Positions 1 through 11,183 of a DNA stretch of 19,709 bases are shown here, one piece after another (the stretch's first letter is position 1; the number at the start of each line of letters is the position of its first letter). The position numbers and the translations under genes are program-made. The DNA is from a candidate division TA06 bacterium SM23_40 (GTDB lineage: Bacteria > LJUI01 > SM1-40), in the NCBI GenBank assembly GCA_001303705.1, contig LJUI01000032.1, forward strand, positions 1 to 19,709, written 5' to 3'. The notes below the pieces were generated by a model. That model did not search any database, was not told where the DNA came from, and worked only from the letters and a program-made list of their open reading frames with translations.

Positions 1-1581
1 CGCTCGAACCGGGATGAGATTCTAGATCGCTGGCAGACTGGCGTGATCAAGGTGGACGAGGAAGAGCGTCAGCGAGTCGGAGCTGGTGACGTAGACCTTG
101 GGGGATTCTTAGAGCACTTCTTCAGAGCGATCGAAGACGGCGATCTGAGTCATCTCTACCGAATGCTGGGGGAGGTTGCGAAGCAGCGATGGCGGATCTG
201 GCGGTTGGCGATTTCGGAGTCCGGGCGCACGGCGCTCTACATCAAGCGTGTTCTGTACGACGTTCTCGACAGGGAATTGACCGACCGGGCCGAGCTCATG
301 CAGGCGGTGAGGATGATCGATGCGTGCACAACTGAACTGATGTACCACTATATCGAGACGTATCAGGCGATGGCGGTGGCCGAGCTCCAGCGTCAGGCAG
401 GACGCCTGGCCAAGGCAGAGCAGGACAAGAAGTTCGCCGTGGAGAGACAGCATCTGCTGGAGAAGCTGAGGCAGCAGGAGAGGCACCTGGCAGCGATCGT
501 CGACGGGAGCGCTGACGCCATTATCGGGCTCGATCCAGATGGTGTCATCCTTTCCTGGAACCGCGGTGCCGAGCTCATCTTCGGTTATGAGAGTGAGGAG
601 ATGATCGGCAGGTCGATCGAAGTGCTCGTGCCCGATCATCTCAAGAGGGCTCGCGAGCATGAAACGATAGCAAGTCAGGTACGTAACAATGGATTCGTAC
701 GCGGATTGGAGACCGAGCGACTCGCAAAAGGCGGACGCTGGGTGGTTGTCGATCTGACGAGCACGGCGATACGGGACGAACAGGGGAAGATAGTCGGTAT
801 GTCGGCCATCCTCAGAGATATCACGCACCGCAGGCGAATGAGGGAGCGGGTCCTCCATGCTGAACGCCTCGCCACCATAGGAATGATGGCAGCCCGCGTC
901 GCGCACGATGTGCGCAGTCCGCTCAGCTCCATTACGCTCAATGCCGACCTGCTGGCAGAGGAGCTCCGGACCTATGCGGAGAGCAATACGACCGAGGCGC
1001 AGGCACTCCTCAGATCGATCGACTCTGAACTGGAGCGGCTCAGCAAGGTGGTGGATGAGTACCTGAGCTTCGCGCGGCCGCCCGAGGCAAAGTTCGAACC
1101 GCATGACATAGCACAGATAGTGGGGGATCTACTGGACTTTCTGGAGAAAGAGATGGCGGGGAACGGTGTCCGGCTGAGCCGGGCGTTTCACCAGGGCATC
1201 CCGCCCATGCTTGTCGATGCGCATCAGATACGGCAGGCCTGCCTCAATCTCCTCAAGAACAGCTGCGAGGCAATGCCCCACGGGGGCGAGATCACAGCAG
1301 GGATCGAGCGTCAGGGCGATGACGTGCTGATCACTATCACCGATACCGGTGTTGGAATTCCTGAAGACGAGATCGATACCATGTTCAAACCGTTTACAAG
1401 CACCAAAGTGGGAGGGACCGGACTGGGGTTGGCAGTTGCCCAGGAGATTGTGGCGGAACACGGCGGCACGATACGTTGTCAAAGCAGAGTGGGAGAGGGA
1501 GCCACGTTCACCATCAGGTTGCCGCTCTTCCTGGGTAGGATTCGCTCGAAGCCGGAGAGATATGATGCAGATGCAGGGTGA
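1..1581 (+). CDS. Soluble PAS-domain sensor histidine kinase, 5'-truncated by window edge
   Basis: Cytosolic two-component kinase that autophosphorylates a histidine and passes phosphate to its partner regulator. The frame is open from base 1 ([12 protein letters not shown]...), so the GTG at 43 is probably not the true start. The N-terminal ~130 residues resemble the RsbRD-type helical sensor domain (EILDRW motif) and run into a coiled coil. A PAS domain follows (about codons 160-275), then the H-box [12 protein letters not shown] with the phospho-accepting His at 904-906. The ATPase boxes are all present: N-box [12 protein letters not shown]1 [10 protein letters not shown]-box FKPFTSTK and G2 GTGLGLAVA. 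No transmembrane segment or signal peptide is visible, so the signal is probably internal. The gene overlaps the next one by 20 bp, which implies translational coupling with the sigma-54 activator. Kinase identity is certain; the N-terminal domain name is less so, and the ligand is unknown. Confidence 0.93.
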
Positions 1582-3253
1582 ATATCGAGTGCTGGTCGTA
1601 GATGATGAGGCAGGCACTCGCGAGTCGCTCTCCAAGGTTCTAGCCAAGGAGGGATACGACGTTGCAGCGGCCAGCGACGGCCGAGAGGCATTGAATGTAG
1701 TGGAGAAGGGTGGGATCAACGTCGTGCTCGCCGATGTGAAGATGCCGAGAATGGACGGAGTGGAGCTCCTGCGTGCCGTGAAGAGGTACTCACCGGACAT
1801 CGAAGTCATCCTCATCACCGGGTATGGCACGGTCGAGACCGCTGTCGAGGCAATGCGCGAGGGAGCCTACGACTTCGTGTTGAAGCCGTTCAGACGAGTC
1901 GTCATCACGAAGGCCGTGAGCAAGGCTATCGAGAATCAAATTCTTGTCATCGAGAATCGCGCTCTGCGGGATCAGCTCCACGCGTTCCAGGAGGGAAAGA
2001 GGCTCATCGGCTCCGGACCTGCGATGGCGCGCGTTGTGGAGATCGTTGAGCAGGTCGCTCCCAGTGCTGCCACCGTTCTGATGCTGGGGGAGAGTGGTAC
2101 GGGGAAGGAAGTGGTGGCGAACGCCATCCACCAGCTCAGCCCGCGCCGGGATAGGAGATTCATCAAGGTGAGCTGTGCTGCGCTGCCGGAGACACTTCTC
2201 GAGGCCGAGCTCTTCGGGCATGAGCGTGGGGCCTTCACCGGCGCGGTGGCCCGGAGGGAGGGGCGCTTTGAGGCGGCAGATGGAGGCACCCTGTTTCTCG
2301 ATGAGATCGGAGAGATGTCCCTGGCGACTCAGGTGAAACTTCTTCGCGTGCTGCAGGAGGGGGAGTTTGAACGGCTCGGCTCGACTCGCACCCTCAAAGC
2401 TGACGTCAGACTGATTGCCGCCACCAATGAGGATCTGCTTGAGGCTATCGGTCATGGTTCGTTCAGAGCAGATGTCTACTATCGTCTCAATGTCATCACC
2501 ATTACGGTCCCTCCCCTGCGGGAGCGAAAAGAAGACATCCCTCTTTTCGTAGATCACTTTATTCACATTTATTCGAAGAAGAACGACAAGAAGATCGAGG
2601 GAATATCGGCTGAGGCAATGTCCATGCTCACCCACTACGACTGGCCTGGAAACGTGCGGGAGCTGGAGAACGCTATCGAGCGGGCAGTCGTACTGACGAG
2701 GAGGAAGTTCATCGGCCCACAGGATCTTCCTGTCGATATCAGGCATCCAGGGGACGTCACTGTGGCGGAGGAGATCGCGCCTGCGGAGACTGAGACAGGC
2801 CAGGTGGTCAGGATCCCGATCGGAGTCCCGCTGCGCGTAATCGAGATGCACGTGATAGATGAAACCCTTCGCGCCACAGATTACAACAGGAACCGTGCTG
2901 CCGAGATCCTCGGTCTGAGCGCCAGGACGATCTACCGGAGGCTGAAATCGAAGGAAGAGTCTCCTGTGGTGGGGAAGATGTTACTGGGGCGTCAGGATCT
3001 TCCTCGCGATATCACCTCGCGGGATGGCGGGGGCGATCGGATGCTCCACATTCCGATCGGAATGCCGCTACGCGAGGTCGAGAAGCGGGTCATCGACGAG
3101 ACCCTGCGAGCTACGAACGGCAATAGGAACCGTGCTGCCGAGATCCTCGGTCTCAGCGCCCGGACTATCTATCGGAGAGTCAAAGAGACGGAGAAGGATG
3201 GCGGCGATTCCAGGGGGATGTCAGGGACGGTGCCGAAGGGTGAAGATTACTGA
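1562..3253 (+). CDS. NtrC-family sigma-54-dependent response regulator with two Fis-type HTH domains
   Basis: Phosphorylation-controlled AAA+ activator that opens sigma-54 promoters. Receiver domain, residues 8-115: acidic pair D14/D15, phospho-acceptor D58 and K108. AAA+ domain about 148-380: Walker A GESGTGKE (176-183), GAFTGA loop (223-228, intact, so sigma-54 contact is expected) and Walker [12 protein letters not shown] (241-251). Unusually, the Fis-type HTH occurs twice: about 416-462 and 494-541, both with the core [19 protein letters not shown]. The usual family length is about 450-480 aa; this protein has 563, and the excess is accounted for by the duplication. The ATG at 1562 is one of three close candidates (1562, 1565, 1571). 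GGAGAG at 1554-1559 favours 1565 or 1571 slightly. The gene overlaps the kinase gene, its likely partner. The likely target is the sigma-54 promoter at 5006-5021 (inference). Confidence 0.95.
2702..3199 (+). repeat. Tandem intragenic duplication of linker plus HTH
   Basis: Two adjacent coding units, about 2702-2956 and 2972-3199, encode near-copies of the activator's C-terminal region. Each has a QDLPxDI linker motif, an IPIGxPLRxxE helix and the Fis-type HTH. DNA identity is high through the HTH core around 2890-2940 and 3128-3178. Differences there are mostly synonymous third-position changes, which suggests a duplication kept under protein-level selection. Confidence 0.9.
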
Positions 3254-3272: not shown

Positions 3273-3301
3273 TTGACTGGCGACAGTCGTGTTGATATAA
3301 T
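3273..3301 (+). promoter_or_regulatory. Strong sigma-70-type promoter upstream of tonB
   Basis: TTGACT (3273-3278), a 17-bp spacer and TATAAT (3296-3301), with an extended -10 TG at 3293-3294. This is one mismatch from full consensus. The spacer region also contains a perfect inverted repeat, GACTG-GCGA-CAGTC (3275-3288), partly overlapping the -35, which could be an operator. It lies 91 bp upstream of the tonB start and just after the regulator's stop codon, so tonB is probably transcribed independently of the kinase-regulator pair. Confidence 0.8.
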
Positions 3302-3392
3302 TCACATGCCTTCCGGGAGATGGTAACTGGACAGACATGAGAAGGACTGAGTTCGCAGCATTGACCGGCGGGTGTACGAGGGGGTGTTCTAA

Positions 3393-4010
3393 ATGGCCAG
3401 CAGAAAGATAGTGGACCTGAAAGAGAGTCACGCGATCTACCTCAGGGTAGCGCTCCTCGCCTCCATAGTCTTACATGGCGTCGTCCTGTTCGCGGTGCCG
3501 TACTTCGAGCCGAACGTCAAGCCGAGGACGTACGAAGACGTCATCATCGAGGACATGGAGGCGCCGCCTGAGGTTGAGGAGCCTCCGCCTGAGCAGAGAC
3601 CGGCGCTGCCTGTGGAGGCGGAGTCGGAGGAGGAAGAGGAGCAGGCAGTTGAGACGATCGAGGAGACCGATTTCGATCCGTTCGCGCGGATCGATCAGCC
3701 GATAGCTCCCGAACCTGAGACCCCCGAGTTTGTCGCTTACGATACGCCTCCGCAGCTCATCCGGACCATTGAACCTGAGTATCCTGAGATTGCGCGCAGG
3801 GCCGGGATCGAGGGGACTGTCTTCGTACGGGTGCTGGTGGATGTCGATGGGACCGTTCTCGATGCTCGCATCGAGAAGGGTCTCAACGAGGCTCTGGATC
3901 GAGCCGCCATCGATGCCGCCCTCAAGAGCAAGTTCTCTCCTGCCAAGCAGCGCGACAAACCGGTGCGCGTCTGGGTCACCTATCCGATTCGTTTCACTCT
4001 CAAGGGCTAG
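3393..4010 (+). CDS. tonB: TonB-family energy transducer
   Basis: Periplasm-spanning protein that couples inner-membrane proton-motive force to outer-membrane TonB-dependent receptors. It has 205 residues. A single N-terminal membrane anchor lies at about 16-38 (YLRVALLASIVLHGVVLFAV), followed by an acidic, proline- and glutamate-rich linker (about 48-110). The C-terminal TonB domain (about 118-203) shows the typical EPEYPEIARRAGIEGTV start and RVWVTYPIRF end. The linker is dominated by Glu-Pro rather than the Lys-Pro repeats of E. coli TonB. GAGGGGG at 3378-3384, 8 nt before the ATG, supports this start. No exbB/exbD or receptor gene is in the window, so the partner is unknown. The gene has its own promoter and terminator and so stands alone between two regulatory loci. 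Confidence 0.92.
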   Translation: MASRKIVDLKESHAIYLRVALLASIVLHGVVLFAVPYFEPNVKPRTYEDVIIEDMEAPPEVEEPPPEQRPALPVEAESEEEEEQAVETIEETDFDPFARIDQPIAPEPETPEFVAYDTPPQLIRTIEPEYPEIARRAGIEGTVFVRVLVDVDGTVLDARIEKGLNEALDRAAIDAALKSKFSPAKQRDKPVRVWVTYPIRFTLKG

Positions 4011-4327: not shown

Positions 4328-4642
4328 ATGGGCTGCCCGTATCTTCATCGCGTGGAGATCCGGCTGGCTGGGGTCGATCAGTATTACTGTCGCGGATACA
4401 CCAGCGGCAAGCTGAGGGTCCCCTCACTCTTCGAGCACAACTCCTATTGCTTCTCGGCCAACTATATCAACTGCCCCGTCCTTGTCCACCGTCGACGAAG
4501 ACAGCTCCCGGGTACGGCTCGCGATCAGTTGCCTGCCCGTGACGGAGAGCAGGCGGGAAGGTCAGCCCAACGTGTTCTATCCCCCTCCGCTGACACCGGC
4601 TGCCGCTCCGGCGGGCCGCTCTCGGCTCCCTCCGCTGACTAG
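4328..4642 (+). CDS. Small four-cysteine protein, function unknown; possible frameshift
   Basis: Reading from ATG 4328 gives 104 residues. GGGGGTGAG at 4312-4320 is a well-placed ribosome site; a GTG at 4316 is also in frame. The first ~52 residues look like a real compact domain: Cys3-Pro-Tyr-Leu, Cys21, Cys41 and Cys49-Pro-Val-Leu, with aromatic residues between. This spacing suits binding of one metal ion or Fe-S cluster. I have the impression that short CP...C...C...CP domains occur elsewhere in anaerobic bacteria, but I cannot name a family. After Cys49 this frame turns into Arg/Ser-rich sequence of low coding quality. The frame starting with TTG 4482 has much higher G/C at third positions and runs to a stop at 4677-4679. 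One extra base near 4475-4483 could therefore split a single gene. No function is assigned. Confidence 0.55.
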   Translation: MGCPYLHRVEIRLAGVDQYYCRGYTSGKLRVPSLFEHNSYCFSANYINCPVLVHRRRRQLPGTARDQLPARDGEQAGRSAQRVLSPSADTGCRSGGPLSAPSAD

Positions 4643-4786
4643 CCCCAGAGACGACATTCCTGAGATGACAATCGGCTGATATCGCAGATGTCCGAGGCTC
4701 TCTGCGCGCGTTCGTTCACAGGTGGCGCACCGTGCGGATACGGATGCTTGAGTATCGGACGCCGGGACAGGGGCCTGCGGATGGCA

Positions 4787-4801
4787 CTGACAGAATGTCA
4801 G
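4787..4801. promoter_or_regulatory. Candidate activator site 1
   Basis: Perfect inverted repeat CTGACA-GAA-TGTCAG. On the reverse strand it reads GACATTCTGTCAG, the best-conserved member of three related sites. Its centre is about 238 bp upstream of the predicted sigma-54 start, within the normal range for an enhancer bound by an NtrC-type activator. Confidence 0.6.
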
Positions 4802-4828
4802 GTGCTGCAGCCCGCAGCCGGGGTAACT

Positions 4829-4842
4829 GGACATTTTTTCAG
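4829..4842. promoter_or_regulatory. Candidate activator site 2 (weaker)
   Basis: GACATTTTTTCAG at 4830-4842 matches the site-1 and site-3 pattern GACATTCTGWCAG at 11 of 13 positions. It lies midway between them: 41-43 bp from each by centre. Taken alone it would be unconvincing; the regular spacing is what supports it. Confidence 0.45.
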
Positions 4843-4871
4843 GGGAGGTGGTCATCCAGGTCAAAGTGGCG

Positions 4872-4885
4872 TGACATTCTGACAG
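4872..4885. promoter_or_regulatory. Candidate activator site 3
   Basis: TGACATTCTGACAG matches the reverse complement of site 1 at 13 of 14 positions. It overlaps a second small dyad, TTCTG-A-CAGAA (4877-4887). Its centre is about 154 bp upstream of the predicted transcript start and 84 bp (about eight helical turns) from site 1. Confidence 0.6.
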
Positions 4886-5005
4886 AACATGGCGGTTTTC
4901 GGAGGACAAGGGCACCCGTGCGATACTCCCGGACCTGCCGCTAGTCTATTGATCGCCTGTGAGTTATGTGCAAGCGTCTTATTGGTTCCCGGCCCCAGCC
5001 ATGGT

Positions 5006-5021
5006 TGGCACGCATCTTGCT
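5006..5021 (+). promoter_or_regulatory. Sigma-54 (-24/-12) promoter
   Basis: TGGCACG-N4-TTGCT, with GG at 5007-5008 and GC at 5019-5020 separated by exactly 10 bp. This matches the full sigma-54 consensus, including the preceding pyrimidine. Transcription would begin near 5032 and read into the receiver gene and the oxidoreductase operon. Three activator-like sites lie upstream, and an activator with an intact GAFTGA motif is encoded nearby. Confidence 0.88.
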
Positions 5022-5202
5022 CCTATTCAGAGAATGATGTGGTATCGAGACCTCCTCAGGTCACCATCGCCGGTTTTGTCGTGTGAGCGGGAACTATCGG
5101 AGCTCATGCGGCGTTAGGTTGAAGTGGTGCTGCGCTGAAGGAGGTTGAGCCAACGCACCGAACGGCTAGACAGGGATTGGGACGGGGAACAGAAGGCTGC
5201 TA

Positions 5203-5266
5203 CTGTATTGAATGGAGTACCTGTCAGCGGTACGCCACCTCCCGTGATGGGCTCTCCGCAATACAG
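5203..5266 (+). ncRNA. Predicted three-way junction in the operon leader
   Basis: CTGTATTG (5203-5210) pairs perfectly with CAATACAG (5259-5266), closing a region that holds two smaller hairpins. These are GTACC/GGTAC (5217-5221 with 5229-5233) and CCC/GGG (5241-5243 with 5249-5251). I do not recognise a known riboswitch class. It lies about 75 nt upstream of the first start codon, in the position of a cis-acting RNA. Confidence 0.4.
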
Positions 5267-5305
5267 ATTGGTTGACTCGCCGGGGCGACAATCGCAGTCC
5301 TTCTT

Positions 5306-5339
5306 GTTCCCCGTCTTTTTTGTCCCAGGGGCGGGGAAC
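5306..5339 (+). promoter_or_regulatory. Hairpin covering the ribosome site of the first operon gene
   Basis: GTTCCCCG (5306-5313) pairs perfectly with CGGGGAAC (5332-5339) across an 18-nt loop. The 3' arm is the only plausible Shine-Dalgarno sequence (GGGGA) for the ATG at 5341. When folded, the RNA should block initiation. A T6 run lies in the loop (5315-5320). This could be a translational switch linked to the upstream folded leader, or a constitutive brake. Confidence 0.55.
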
Positions 5340-5340
5340 G

Positions 5341-5712
5341 ATGGCGCAGAGGATCTTGGTCGTTGATGACGATCGGGAGTTTCGCAGCGCGCTCGTAAAG
5401 ATCTTCGAAAGAGAGGGCTATTCCGTCGTGCCGGCCGCCGACGGCGATGAGGCGTTGGATTGTGTGAGGGGGACTTCGTTCGCACTCATCGTGGCTGACG
5501 CTCGTATGCCAAAGCTCGGCGGGCCCGAGCTCGTTCGCCGGCTCAAGGAACAGTGTCCGGGGGCTGCGCTCATTGTGGTCTCAGCGCTGCCGGATGGTCA
5601 GATCAGGGCAGACATGCTGGAGAACGGGGCATTCGATTTTGTCTCGAAGCCGGTGAGACGGGACGAACTGCTCAGGCTGGCACGGCGTGCACTCGCGCCA
5701 CGGGAGCACTGA
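5341..5712 (+). CDS. Single-domain response regulator (CheY-like receiver)
   Basis: Stand-alone receiver of 123 residues with no output domain. It has the acidic residues D9-D11, phospho-acceptor D53 in VADARMPKLGG, the switch Ser81 and K103 in SKPVRRDEL. All catalytic receiver residues are present, so it should be phosphorylated. It is the first gene behind the sigma-54 promoter and lies 34 bp before the oxidoreductase ferredoxin gene. A role as phosphate sink, relay or feedback element for the kinase at the left edge is possible but inferred. ATG 5341 is chosen because MAQRILVVDDD begins the receiver fold exactly, and GGGGA lies 5 nt upstream inside a hairpin. Upstream in-frame starts would add non-conserved residues. 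Confidence 0.9.
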   Translation: MAQRILVVDDDREFRSALVKIFEREGYSVVPAADGDEALDCVRGTSFALIVADARMPKLGGPELVRRLKEQCPGAALIVVSALPDGQIRADMLENGAFDFVSKPVRRDELLRLARRALAPREH

Positions 5713-5746: not shown

Positions 5747-6022
5747 ATGGCCAGAGTGAAGGCGCTCGAACACGCGGTCGTCACGATCGACCCGGACCAG
5801 TGCAAGGGATGCGAACTCTGCGTCATTGCCTGTCCTGAGCACGTACTGGAGATGTCTCCAGAGCTGAACCGGAGGGGATTCCATTTCTCGCGCTATATCG
5901 GGAGCGGGTGTACAGGCTGCGGATTCTGTTACTATACATGCCCTGAGGCTGGGGCGATCACCGTCTACAAAAAGGGATATACCCCTGAGGGGGAGGAAGA
6001 AGCTCCATGGCCAGAGAGCTGA
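5747..6022 (+). CDS. vorD: 2[4Fe-4S] ferredoxin-like subunit of 2-oxoacid:ferredoxin oxidoreductase
   Basis: Delta-type electron-transfer subunit carrying two [4Fe-4S] clusters. The cluster motifs are [12 protein letters not shown] (Cys19, 22, 25, 29) and [12 protein letters not shown] (Cys55, 58, 61, 65), in a 91-residue protein. It would pass electrons from the thiamine-diphosphate subunits to soluble ferredoxin. The gene is followed with a 16-bp overlap by the alpha subunit gene and then the fused beta-gamma gene, which fixes its complex. A GGAGG/GAGAGG region at 5724-5736 precedes the ATG. The branched-chain (VOR) label comes from the alpha subunit; a 2-oxoglutarate enzyme is the main alternative. 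Confidence 0.88.
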
Positions 6023-7059
6023 TCAAGGGGAACGATGCACTGGTGAAGGGAGCCATCCTGGCCGGCTGCCGATCGTATTTCGGCTATCCCATCACACCGG
6101 CATCGGAGATCGCTGAGGCGGCCGCGAGGTTCATGCCGCTCGTCGGAGGGACGTTCATTCAGGCTGAGAGCGAGGTGGCCGCTATCAATATGGTGTACGG
6201 AGCCGCGTCCGCGGGGCAGCGTACGATGACCGCATCCTCCAGTCCGGGGTTCAGCCTCAAACAGGAGGGGATTTCCTATTGCGCCGGCTCCGAACTGCCC
6301 TGCGTCATTGCCAACATTGTACGAGGAGGACCCGGGCTCGGGAACATCGCGCCTGAGCAAGGTGATTACTTCCAGACGGTGAAGGGGGGCGGTCACGGCA
6401 ATTATCGGGTCATCGTCTTCGCCCCGAACTCGGCACAGGAGATGTGCGACTTCTCGATGCTGGCATTCGATCTTGCAGACAAGTATCGCAATCCCGTGCT
6501 GATCATGAGCGATGGGTTCACGGGTCAGATGATGGAGCCGGTCGACTTCCCCGAGCCGAAACCCGTCCCGGAGAGAGACGAATCGTGGGCAGTATGCGGC
6601 GACGCCGATACGCGGCCGAACCTCATCTCGTCGATCTACCTGGAGCCCGAAGAGCTTGAAGCCCACATCAAGAAGCTGAAGGCCAAGTACGATGAGATGC
6701 AGCGGACCGAGGTGCGGTACGAGGAGTACGAGGCGGATGACGCGGAAATCATGTTGATCGGCTTTGGCATCGTGTCGCGGGTTCTCAGGAGCGTCGTTGA
6801 CAGGGCGCGGGAGAAGGGGCTGAAGGTGGGCCTGCTGAGACCCATCACGTTATGGCCGTTTCCCAGTAAGCGGATCGCCCAGCGGGCGAAACAAGTAGAG
6901 ACATTTCTGGTTGTCGAGCTGTCGACAGGCCAGATGGTTGAAGATGTACAGCTGGCTGTCATGAATGAGGCGCCGGTCAGGCTGTACTGGCGTGCCGGCG
7001 GCGTGGTGCCGACTGCAGAGGAGATCCTCGGCGAGATCGAAAAGATGATCGAGGGCTGA
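6007..7059 (+). CDS. vorB: 2-oxoacid:ferredoxin oxidoreductase alpha subunit, VorB-like
   Basis: Alpha subunit (350 aa) of a thiamine-diphosphate-dependent enzyme that oxidatively decarboxylates 2-oxoacids to acyl-CoA with reduction of ferredoxin. The N-terminal pyrimidine-binding domain has [11 protein letters not shown] (about residues 25-35) and QAESEVAAI (53-61). The RGGPGLG motif and a C-terminal transketolase-like domain with [11 protein letters not shown] follow. Length and motifs fit the VorB group (3-methyl-2-oxobutanoate oxidoreductase), whose members are near 350 aa. The related KorA (2-oxoglutarate) cannot be excluded from sequence alone. The gene overlaps the ferredoxin subunit gene and ends 1 nt before the beta-gamma gene. 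GGGAGGAAG at 5991-5999 is its ribosome site. Confidence 0.9.
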
Positions 7060-7060
7060 C

Positions 7061-8527
7061 ATGGCAAAAAAGATATTGAAGAAGCCGGATGCCCTGTATG
7101 ACGTCTTCGAGAGAAAGCCCGGTGTCGACAAGACGATGACCCACTATTGCCCGGGCTGTGGTCACGGCATCCTGCACAAGCTGATTGCAGAGGCGATCGA
7201 CGACCTCGGTGTTGCCGATCGCACCATTTTCGTGAGTCCTGTCGGGTGCAGTGTCTTCGCATATTACTACTTCGATGTGGGTAATGTCCAGGTCGCCCAC
7301 GGGCGAGCTCCCGCCGTTGCTACGGGACTCAAGCGTGCCAGCCCTAACAGCATCGTCATCTCGTACCAGGGCGATGGAGATCTTGCGGCGATCGGGGGAA
7401 ACAACATCCTGCAGGCCGCCAACAGAGGTGAGTTATTCACTGTCTTCTTCATCAACAACGGCATCTATGGAATGACCGGCGGGCAGATGGCCCCGACTAC
7501 ACTCATCGGCCAGAAGACAACGACTACGCCGTACGGCCGGACCATCCGGAATGAGGGATACCCGATACGGGTGTGCGAGCTGCTCGCGACACTAGAATCT
7601 CCGGTCTACATCGAGCGCACCGCGATGACCGATGCAAAGAACATTGCCCGGACCCGTCGTGCCGTCAGGAAGGCGCTCAGGTGTCAGGTCGATCGGAAGG
7701 GATTCTCATTGGTCGAGGTACTCTCTAGCTGTCCCAGCGGGTGGAAGGTCGAACCGCGTGAGGCGCTCAAGTGGATCGAAGAGAAGATGATGCCGTACTT
7801 CCCTCTGGGCGTGTACAAGGATGTGATCGAGGAGCGAGAGCCTGTCGAGCTCGTCGAGCGTACCTACACCTCGGCCGATATCATGAAGGGGTTGGCACTG
7901 GCGGACGGAGAGGCAGCGGCCAGGGCTCCGCGGCACGAGGACGTAGGCGAAATGGCCATGAAGATAGCGGGCTTCGGCGGCCAGGGCATCCTCTTTCTCG
8001 GGCTGGCGCTGGCTGAGACCGGGATGGATGAGGGGCTGCATGTAACGTGGCTGCCGTCTTATGGTCCGGAGATGCGGGGGGGCACCGCAAACTGCCATGT
8101 CATTCTGTCCGGACGCAGAGTCGGTGCTCCGCTCGTCTCAATCCCCAACGTCTTGATTGCGCTCAACCGACCCTCACTCGAGAAGTTCGAGCCGGCCTTG
8201 AGTGAGGGAGGTCTTATCCTCTATGATAGTTCGCTCATCGATATCAGTCCATCACGAAAGGACATCATACCGCTTCCTGTGCCGGCGACGAAGTTGGCGG
8301 ATGAACTGGGGAGCACGAGGGCTGCCAACATGGTCGCCATGGGGGCGCTGATCGGATACACGGATGTGGTCAGCGTGGACGGGGCGATCGCAGCCCTGCC
8401 CAGGCTGGTGAAGAGAGATGAGCTCATATCGCTCAATGAAGCTGCCATCAGGAAGGGCGTCGAACAGGGTCGGCAGCTCCGGGCGAAGCAGAAAGTGGCG
8501 GTAGGAACAGGAAAAGGAGCACGCTGA
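7061..8527 (+). CDS. vorA: Fused beta-gamma subunit of 2-oxoacid:ferredoxin oxidoreductase
   Basis: One 488-residue chain joins two subunits that are usually separate. The beta part (about 1-285) binds thiamine diphosphate: HYCPGCGHG (28-36), GDGD (104-107), and Asn residues in GGNN and INNG. The gamma part (about 297-475) has GFGGQG (304-309) and SYGPEMRGGTANC (333-345), the signature of the CoA-interacting gamma domain. An acidic, Ala-rich linker at about 280-297 lies between them. The reading frame is continuous, with no hint of a frameshift. With the two preceding genes this gives a complete delta-alpha-(beta-gamma) enzyme. Both halves appear intact. The substrate is inferred from the VorB-like partner. 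Confidence 0.9.
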   Translation: MAKKILKKPDALYDVFERKPGVDKTMTHYCPGCGHGILHKLIAEAIDDLGVADRTIFVSPVGCSVFAYYYFDVGNVQVAHGRAPAVATGLKRASPNSIVISYQGDGDLAAIGGNNILQAANRGELFTVFFINNGIYGMTGGQMAPTTLIGQKTTTTPYGRTIRNEGYPIRVCELLATLESPVYIERTAMTDAKNIARTRRAVRKALRCQVDRKGFSLVEVLSSCPSGWKVEPREALKWIEEKMMPYFPLGVYKDVIEEREPVELVERTYTSADIMKGLALADGEAAARAPRHEDVGEMAMKIAGFGGQGILFLGLALAETGMDEGLHVTWLPSYGPEMRGGTANCHVILSGRRVGAPLVSIPNVLIALNRPSLEKFEPALSEGGLILYDSSLIDISPSRKDIIPLPVPATKLADELGSTRAANMVAMGALIGYTDVVSVDGAIAALPRLVKRDELISLNEAAIRKGVEQGRQLRAKQKVAVGTGKGAR

Positions 8528-8727
8528 ACTTCTGAAACAGTGACTGTTCGCCCTACGGTACTCAGGGCCCAGATGTCTCCAATTGGGCGCCGGCCGGATG
8601 TGGGATCGAGCTGGCAGGAGGGTGAGTCGCAGCGGTGAGTGCGACGCCCGCTGTCGGCCGTCGTGGCCGGAGGAAGAGGCTCGTCTGGGCTCCTTTCAGG
8701 TTGGCACCATACATCCGGGGGAGGATC
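8528..8727 (+). other. 200-bp gap with palindrome and alternative hairpins
   Basis: This is the largest gap inside the operon and splits it into two blocks. It holds a perfect palindrome AACAGT-G-ACTGTT (8536-8548). It also holds two mutually exclusive small helices: GCCCT 8550-8554 with AGGGC 8564-8568, or GCCCA 8567-8571 with TGGGC 8584-8588. No T-run terminator and no clear promoter is seen. TTGGCACC at 8701-8708 recalls a -24 element but lacks the matching GC at -12. Confidence 0.4.
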
Positions 8728-9858
8728 ATGGACATCGGGGTGCCGAAGGAGGTGCGCCAGCACGAAAAGCGAGTCGGGATCACGCCGGGGGGAGTGAGAC
8801 TGCTCGTCCGCAAGGGGCACCGCGTCTTTGTGCAGTCCGGGGCGGGTGAGGGCTGCGGCTTCCTCGACGAACACTATCAGGCGGTCGGAGCCGAAATAGT
8901 CTTTGACGCCGGAGAGGCTTACGGACGAGCGGATGTCGTCCTCAAGGTGACCGGCCTAATCCCGGAAGAATACGAACTGCTCCGGGAGGGTCAGGTCATC
9001 TTTGCATTCTTTCACCTTGCAGCGGCAGCGAGGCAGCTCGTTGACATCCTATTGAAGAAGGAGATCACGGCAGTCGCCTACGAGACGGTGCAGAATCCAG
9101 ATGGAGAGCTGCCCATCCTGGTGCCGATGAGCGAGATCGCCGGCCGCATGGCCCCTGCGATTGCATCTCACTGCCTCTCCACGCCGGCAGGGGGGAAAGG
9201 GATCCTGCTGGCAGGGATCCCCGGGGTCCCTGCAGCTGAGGTCGTCATCATCGGAGGCGGGGTGGTGGGATACAATGCCGCGCGTTCGTTCCTCGGCATA
9301 GGCGCCCACGTGACGCTTCTCGATCGCAAGGTCTCTGTCCTCCAGCGGCTCGACTCTCTGCTCGGGGGGCATCTGAACACGATGATCGCCACGAGGCACA
9401 ACATCACGCGGGTCTGTCGTTATCTCGACGTGCTCGTCGGCTGTATCCTCCTCCCGGGCGCCCGGACGCCGCACGTGGTCACCGAGGAGATGGTGCGTTC
9501 GATGCGGCGACGTTCCGTCATTCTCGACATAGCGATCGATCAGGGTGGATGCGTAGAAACGAGCCATCCGACGACACTGGGCGATCCGACATACATCTCG
9601 GAGGGGATCATACACTATTGCGTCCCGAACATGCCTGGCCGGGCATCACGGACATCATCGCATGCGCTCACAAACGCCTCAGTTCCCTTCCTGCTCGACT
9701 TTCTCGAGGCTGGTGAAGAGCGTGCGCTTGTCGAAAATCGCGCTCTCGCCGCCGGGGTCAACACCTACAGAGGACACCTCGTCAACGAGTCGGTGGCCGC
9801 CTCGACTGACATGGAGGCCGTCTCGCTGGAGTCGATACTCGGAGCCACGAAGAGATGA
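8728..9858 (+). CDS. ald: Alanine dehydrogenase
   Basis: NAD-dependent oxidative deamination of L-alanine to pyruvate and ammonia, or the reverse. The 376-residue length is normal for the family. Seen: [10 protein letters not shown]...ERV-type start with Arg15, substrate-site Lys73 in VVLKV, His96 in FAFFHLAA, the MSEIAGRMA motif, the nucleotide-binding [14 protein letters not shown] (172-185), and DIAIDQGGC (267-275) with the catalytic Asp271. ATG 8728 is preferred over the in-frame GTG at 8635: family proteins begin exactly at this MDIGVPKE, and GGGGGAGG lies at 8717-8724. The next gene overlaps by 4 bp (ATGA). In this setting it supplies pyruvate to the pyruvate-type oxidoreductase, or removes pyruvate and reductant as alanine. 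Confidence 0.95.
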
Positions 9859-11183
9859 ACTGGGTGGACATCTACAAGTCGAAGATCACCACTGCTGAGG
9901 ATGCGGCGACGTACATCAAATCAGGCGACCGCGTCTACATCGGTGCGGGATGTGGGGTGCCCCACAGTCTCGTAGACGCTATGGTCGGATGCGCCGCAGA
10001 TCTGTGGAATGTCGAGATCACCCACCTGTTGACCATCGGGCCGGCGCCCTACGCCAAACCTGAGATGGCCGAACACTTCCGCCACAACGCGGTCTTTGTG
10101 GGTGGGAATGTGCGCGAGGCGATCAACTCCGGGAGAGGGGACTACATCCCCATCTACCTCGCCGATGTGCCGAAGCTCTACCTGCAGGGCCACCTGCCTC
10201 TCGATGTCGCGCTCGTCAGCCTCTCGCCGCCCGATGAGCACGGGTTCTGCAGCTTCGGGATCGAGGTTGGCTGCACCAAGCCCGCAGCGCATGCCGCCAA
10301 GAAAGTGATCGCCGAGGTGAACACAGAGATGCCGCGCACCCTGGGGGATAGCTTCATCCACGTATCGAAGGTGGATCAGTTCGTTGAGGTGTCGCGGCCG
10401 CTCGACGTGCTGGGAAAGCCTGAAATATCGGATGTCCACCGTCGTATCGGCCGGTACATAGCTGATCTGATCGAGGATGGTTCGACTCTCCAGATGGGCA
10501 TCGGCGCGATCCCTGACGCTGTTCTCCTCTTTCTCGATGAGAAGGAGGACCTCGGGGTGCATACGGAGATGTTTTCGGATGGGCTGATAGAGCTCATCGA
10601 GCGCGGGATCGTGACGAACGACAAGAAGACGGTCCATCCGGGCAAGGCGATCGTCGGGTTTCTTCTCGGGTCGAGAAGACTGTACGAATTCGTTGACAAC
10701 AACGCACTCATCGAGTTCCATCCCACGGACTATGTGAACAACCCGCTCCTCATCAGCCAGAACGATAAGATGGTGGCGATCAACTCCGCCATTCAAGTCG
10801 ATATCACCGGCCAGGTGAGCGCGGACTCGATCGGCTACTATATCTACAGCGGGTTCGGCGGTCAGGTCGATTTCATGCGGGGAGCGGCGCGCTCCAGCGG
10901 AGGGAAGCCGATCACTGCGCTTCCGTCCACGGCGAAGGGCGGCGCGGTCTCTCGCATCGTCCCCCACCTGGACGAGGGTGCGGGGGTGGTCACAAACAGG
11001 GCGGACGTTCACTATGTGGTGACAGAGTACGGAGTCGCCTATCTCTACGGCAAGAACCTGAGGCAGCGCGTGCGGGCGCTGATCGATCTTGCCCATCCGA
11101 ACTTCCGGGAAGATCTGTTGCGCTTCGCACATGAACACAACTATCTGCCGCGCGCAACCGCTGTGGGCCGGGATGTTGGGTGA
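9855..11183 (+). CDS. Acetyl-CoA hydrolase/transferase family CoA-transferase (4-hydroxybutyrate/acetate type)
   Basis: Moves CoA between an acyl-CoA and a free acid through a glutamyl-CoA intermediate. It has 442 residues, typical of the 4-hydroxybutyrate and butyrate:acetate CoA-transferases. Motifs: MGIGAIPDAV (214-223), catalytic Glu in VHTEMFSDG at residue 238 (the position known in AbfT), the oxyanion/CoA-binding GFGGQVDF (333-340), and ITALPSTAKGG followed by VVTEYGVAYLYG. The start overlaps the ald stop by 4 bp, so translation is probably coupled. Beside oxidoreductases that make acyl-CoA, it could release acetate or branched-chain acids while conserving the thioester. The true acid pair cannot be read from the sequence. 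Confidence 0.9.
   Translation: MNWVDIYKSKITTAEDAATYIKSGDRVYIGAGCGVPHSLVDAMVGCAADLWNVEITHLLTIGPAPYAKPEMAEHFRHNAVFVGGNVREAINSGRGDYIPIYLADVPKLYLQGHLPLDVALVSLSPPDEHGFCSFGIEVGCTKPAAHAAKKVIAEVNTEMPRTLGDSFIHVSKVDQFVEVSRPLDVLGKPEISDVHRRIGRYIADLIEDGSTLQMGIGAIPDAVLLFLDEKEDLGVHTEMFSDGLIELIERGIVTNDKKTVHPGKAIVGFLLGSRRLYEFVDNNALIEFHPTDYVNNPLLISQNDKMVAINSAIQVDITGQVSADSIGYYIYSGFGGQVDFMRGAARSSGGKPITALPSTAKGGAVSRIVPHLDEGAGVVTNRADVHYVVTEYGVAYLYGKNLRQRVRALIDLAHPNFREDLLRFAHEHNYLPRATAVGRDVG

Follow-up and report, generated by a model that had tools for sequence, protein, structure and literature searches.

We found that the DNA upstream of a sigma-54 promoter in the window (the whole stretch of 19,709 nucleotides that was analysed) contains three related 15-bp dyads, and that this region is very probably the UAS of that promoter. 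The NtrC-family activator encoded at 1562-3253 would bind the three dyads, open the promoter at 5006-5021 and drive an operon for ferredoxin and a 2-oxoacid oxidoreductase. The features are as follows.

43-1581, plus strand: cytoplasmic PAS histidine kinase, AtoS/ZraS-like (Pfam PAS, HisKA and HATPase_c; best NCBIfam match AtoS, under its cut-off)
1562-3253, plus strand: NtrC-family response regulator, sigma-54 activator (Pfam Response_reg, Sigma54_activat and two copies of HTH_8; GAFTGA)
3273-3301: sigma-70-like promoter of tonB (TTGACT-N17-TATAAT)
3393-4010, plus strand: TonB C-terminal domain protein, between the activator gene and the predicted enhancer (Pfam TonB_C)
4328-4642: small Cys-rich ORF (MGCPYL..YYC..YC..CP), no match in Pfam or NCBIfam
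4787-4801, strand-neutral: predicted UAS site 1, CTGACAGAATGTCAG, a perfect dyad (12/12) and the sole perfect YTGACANNNTGTCAR of the genome
4828-4842, strand-neutral: predicted UAS site 2, TGGACATTTTTTCAG, weak (9/12; 10/12 with the widened consensus)
4871-4885, strand-neutral: predicted UAS site 3, GTGACATTCTGACAG (10/12)
5006-5021, plus strand: sigma-54 promoter, -24/-12 TGGCACG-N4-TTGCT (TGGCACGCATCTTGCT, 0 mismatches; predicted start ~5032)
5031-5321, plus strand: strongly structured leader RNA, candidate attenuator or small RNA (folding z-scores; long stem and U6)
5341-5712, plus strand: stand-alone receiver (REC), the first gene past the promoter (Pfam Response_reg; 41% identical to the receiver at loci L227/L233)
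5747-8527, plus strand: ferredoxin (Fd), VorA and fused VorB-VorC (2-oxoacid:ferredoxin oxidoreductase), the proposed target operon (domain and family matches; operon link in loci L215, L217 and L218)
8662-11183, plus strand: alanine dehydrogenase and acyl-CoA:acetate CoA-transferase, presumed to belong to the same operon (gene order as in L215)

Further downstream are a second 2-oxoacid oxidoreductase, malic enzyme-Pta and HypF. A coding explanation for 4640-5340 was rejected, as there was no coding signal in any frame. The small Cys-rich ORF has weak homologues, found twice on one contig of genome G227.

The earlier note on this DNA had described three related 13-bp sites, the first on the opposite strand and the middle one with two mismatches. 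The 13-mer GACATTCTGWCAG occurs exactly at 4787-4799 (minus strand) and 4873-4885 (plus strand), and with two mismatches at 4830-4842 (plus strand), as described. The minus-strand match is real, but strand has no meaning here since the natural unit of the site is a 15-bp dyad, CTGACA-N3-TGTCAG, present in three copies; the 13-mer lies one base off its axis. The centres of the dyads are at 4794, 4835 and 4878, giving 41 and 43 bp between neighbours, in agreement with the spacing of about 42 bp previously given. They lie approximately 128-212 bp upstream of the sigma-54 box, or ~-154 to -238 relative to the predicted start, which fits the earlier placement 150-240 bp upstream of the promoter. 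A 12-mer, GGTAACTGGACA, is present at 3322-3333, before tonB, and again at 4822-4833, where it overlaps UAS site 2.

We found that only close copies of the 13-mer are informative. Loose matches are not: at up to three mismatches the 13-mer was not enriched in the window (13 seen vs 9.6 +/- 2.9 expected). The 14-mer TGACATTCTGWCAG has two exact copies in the 2.88-Mb genome, both at this locus, and the perfect dyad YTGACA-N3-TGTCAR has one copy genome-wide, also at this locus. (This consensus was seeded on the window's own sites, and its ends were widened to Y and R after loci L216-L218.) With the widened consensus, the only dyads of at least 10/12 in the 19.7 kb window are these three. An unbiased search for palindromes with a three-copy score, covering all 6-bp arms and spacers from 0 to 9 within 300 bp upstream of the box, gave precisely these three sites as its top triple; 5/1000 dinucleotide shuffles reached its score. 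Elsewhere in the genome there are eight more dyads, each with one mismatch, and none of the eight (0/8) lies within 600 bp of a good sigma-54 box. The recurrence of the motif near other -24/-12 promoters of the genome, which the earlier note had suggested looking for, was not borne out, and the regulon probably has a single target in this genome.

The promoter at 5006-5021 satisfies the -24/-12 consensus TGGCAC-N5-TTGCW, and had rightly been called a consensus promoter. There are 10 exact matches to the sigma-54 box in the genome, the window box among them. At one mismatch or fewer, the pattern has 41 genome matches, compared to 20 for the reversed-pattern control. The genome encodes rpoN (contig C101; PF04552, E 6.7e-58). 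Among 40 sigma-54-like promoters in the genome, ranked by upstream repeated dyads, the window promoter comes in the first three. Other sigma-54 promoters of the genome have different repeated dyads of their own, indicating that this architecture is a general habit of the genome. For example, paired dyads two turns apart are found at sigma-54 promoters at C63:5180 (TTCGCA-N3-TGCGAA) and C61:4401 (TGGGTA-N6-TACCCA); these are probably UASs of other activators. Approximately 9 or 10 of the ~18 activator genes have a sigma-54 box in the same direction 0.2-0.7 kb downstream. The best match to an IHF site between the UAS and the promoter agreed at 7/9 positions and was not convincing. IHF is dispensable where DNA can loop or bend.

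The protein encoded at 1562-3253 fits the definition of the NtrC family (a receiver, an AAA+ domain with GAFTGA, and a Fis-type helix-turn-helix [HTH]), and its HTH is doubled. The tandem duplication spans 2804-3185, and Pfam resolves each of the two copies. The copies are identical at 37/48 amino acids but at just 109/144 nucleotides, and the recognition helix is the same in both, so both copies look maintained. A search of 386 genomes for a tandem HTH yielded, among the matches listed, none that spans both copies, and a literature search on tandem-HTH sigma-54 activators found none. The protein scored 509.7 bits against NCBIfam AtoC (PRK11361), below the cut-off of 714, and thus falls outside the AtoC equivalog. 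Its stop codon at 3253 is 1.75 kb from the box at 5006, the distance previously reported. The kinase encoded at 43-1581 is probably its partner. The doubled HTH is a natural experiment on whether a second copy of a DNA-binding domain alters the use of spaced enhancer sites.

We found that the dyad is enriched beside related activator genes in distant genomes. We compared 32 loci encoding related NtrC-type activators, counting dyads in the 350 bp past the end of the activator HTH (11,117 positions) and elsewhere in flanking DNA (545,061 positions). Nine dyads of at least 11/12 were near activator genes and five were elsewhere, an 88-fold enrichment. Perfect (12/12) dyads were enriched 294-fold (6 near, 1 elsewhere). 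The 20 loci L227-L246, which were scanned after the consensus had been widened, account for 8 of the 9 strong sites (six perfect and two 11/12). Each of L227/L233 and L234/L236 is a close pair, which lowers the number of independent events; the contrast persists. Most of the activators with dyads carry an xRTIYRKL-type HTH, and the sites usually precede a sigma-54 box. Four loci with the same HTH type (L215, L220, L222 and L223) have no strong dyad behind the activator gene. The occurrence of the same dyad next to genes for related activators in distant bacteria indicates that the sites in the window are most likely an enhancer used by the adjacent activator to switch on the operon.

The gene context is also shared. 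At L217 and L218 the activator gene is followed by Fd-VorA-VorBC, with an exact sigma-54 box between them in L218 and a degenerate one in L217. At L215 the activator gene closes an Fd-VorA-VorBC-AlaDH-CoA-transferase operon. L227/L233 have a kinase, an activator ~60% identical to that of the window, a perfect dyad, and the stand-alone receiver listed above. The NtrC-type enhancer architecture proposed in the earlier note is supported, at the level of sequence, by the dyad enrichment and by the presence of the same Fd-Vor genes after two activators. We also checked upstream of fused Vor genes, at 22 of 80 such loci in named genomes, and found no directly upstream sigma-54 box and no dyad. The element is therefore not carried by the Vor genes alone.

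The spacing of the sites may follow the helical repeat. Start-to-start spacings in the relatives are 33, 33 and 33 bp (L216-L218), 40 and 40 (L229 and L230), 19 (L231), and 32 and 32 (L244). All of these, and the 41 and 43 bp of the window, are near whole turns at 10.5 bp, with pairs mostly ~2, 3 or 4 turns apart. A Rayleigh test with a 10.5-bp period gave p ~0.014, and 0.06 once related loci were thinned. This pattern moderately favours binding on the same face of the helix, and binding at the array may be cooperative. Conservation in other genomes, to which the earlier note had looked, holds for the motif and for roughly integral helical spacing, but the number of sites and their exact spacing vary among loci.

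Based on the sites, the promoter, the activator's domains, the enrichment of the dyad beside related activators and the common operon context, we suggest the following sequence of events. The kinase would phosphorylate the activator, which would then bind, as dimers, the three dyads, all facing almost the same side of the helix. Once bound, the activator would oligomerise, loop the DNA and, at the expense of ATP, drive opening by the sigma-54 polymerase at 5006-5021. Transcription would then cross the structured leader into the receiver gene and then the ferredoxin/2-oxoacid oxidoreductase operon. The mechanism is an ordinary one; what is new is the identity of the sites and the unusual doubled DNA-binding domain.

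Our results might also indicate that the sites are a UAS for another of the ~17 other sigma-54 activators of the genome and not for the one encoded 1.5 kb upstream. The genome has many activators, and the tonB gene and its sigma-70-like promoter stand in between; the position of tonB and the small ORF between the activator gene and the enhancer, and the weakness of site 2, count against our preferred explanation. However, the dyad goes with activators that have the xRTIYRKL-type HTH, and the Fd-Vor link accompanies the window's type of activator. The other activators of the genome that we examined have divergent HTHs, and their promoters have other palindromes. We consider control by another activator quite unlikely. 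It is less likely still that the palindromes belong to an unrelated regulator, such as a repressor, and lie upstream of the promoter by coincidence. Short dyads with TGACA/TGTCA arms can suit several regulator families, but this reading does not account for the position of the dyads relative to sigma-54 boxes, or for an enrichment found only behind related activator genes. The absence of enrichment of the 13-mer at up to three mismatches would fit three short words that are alike by chance. The 14-mer present twice and the perfect dyad present once genome-wide, the 5/1000 shuffles and the independent enrichment in other genomes leave hardly any room for this.

A further possibility, compatible with the UAS reading, concerns the product of the promoter. 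It could mainly make a stand-alone structured RNA ending at 5321, with the operon transcribed from another promoter. The leader has a folding z-score of -4.0 from the predicted start to 5321 and of -5.9 for 5168-5322, and its U6 (5316-5321) follows a long stem and stops 20 bp short of the receiver gene. Of 38 sigma-54 leaders in the genome, none is more structured and no other ends in U6. No Rfam family matches it. There is also a precedent: the Desulfovibrio vulgaris sigma-54 activators DVU0653 and DVU0679 have been assigned ncRNAs whose genes immediately follow the activator gene (PMC4641369); in the window, by contrast, a metabolic operon comes directly after the structured RNA. In contrast, the loop of such a terminator would be ~100 nt, which is unusual; we found no other promoter-like site before 5341; and at L217 and L218 the sites or the box run straight into the Fd-Vor genes without such a leader. 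A stand-alone RNA as the main product thus seems possible but improbable. The leader may be an attenuator or a small RNA. With regard to our preferred reading, in which the promoter drives the operon, a dimer with a doubled HTH could hold two phased dyads at once and, together with the terminator-like leader, form a two-step switch of enhancer and then attenuation; we regard this elaboration as doubtful. Separately, a REP or MITE origin of the leader hairpin was unsupported, as the repeat pair had a single close copy and no Y1 transposase exceeded the cut-off.

The proposed arrangement resembles known systems. NtrC at glnA is the textbook enhancer, with looping and with several dyads placed upstream of a sigma-54 promoter at distances above 100 bp. 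The window likewise has several dyads more than 100 bp upstream of its sigma-54 promoter, and looping would be expected; the dyad sequence, the spacer and the target genes differ. In D. vulgaris, DVU3023 and related sigma-54 regulators control the lactate/pyruvate oxidation operon DVU3025-3033 (PMC3333781, PMC4641369). The window shows a similar arrangement: an NtrC-type regulator gene adjoins an operon for 2-oxoacid oxidation that would depend on sigma-54, and a predicted UAS lies before the -24/-12 box. Unlike that system, the window has a Vor-type ferredoxin oxidoreductase with a CoA-transferase and alanine dehydrogenase, and an activator with two HTHs. The Escherichia coli AtoS-AtoC system and its atoDAEB operon (PMC3118216) provide the best NCBIfam matches for the kinase and the regulator, and also have palindromes upstream of a short-chain acyl-CoA/CoA-transferase operon. 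However, both window proteins score under the AtoS and AtoC cut-offs, the enzymes differ, and the AtoC site consists of two inverted 20-bp elements (PMC3118216), compared to three 15-bp dyads in the window.

A literature search for the dyad motif under several spellings did not find it. From its distribution, YTGACA-N3-TGTCAR is a candidate binding site for a group of NtrC-type activators from numerous uncultivated lineages; some are linked with operons for 2-oxoacid:ferredoxin oxidoreductase, others with genes for type II secretion. Pairs of dyads follow the activator gene exactly 33 bp apart at L217 and L218, upstream of the sigma-54 box. At L216 the activator gene and a sigma-54 box flank two dyads, CTGACAGGGCGTCAC and TTGACAATTTGTCCG, whose starts are 33 bp apart. 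At this locus and six others (L229, L230, L231, L234, L236 and L240), activators with the same HTH, and dyads, precede gspC-gspD-gspE-like type II secretion genes; Pfam confirms T2SSC, secretin and T2SSE at L216, L229 and L231. At L244 (9286-9513), three TTGAC-type dyads spaced by 32 and 32 bp separate the gene for a sigma-54 activator from groES-groEL. The HTH of that activator is more divergent, and its apparent target is groESL.
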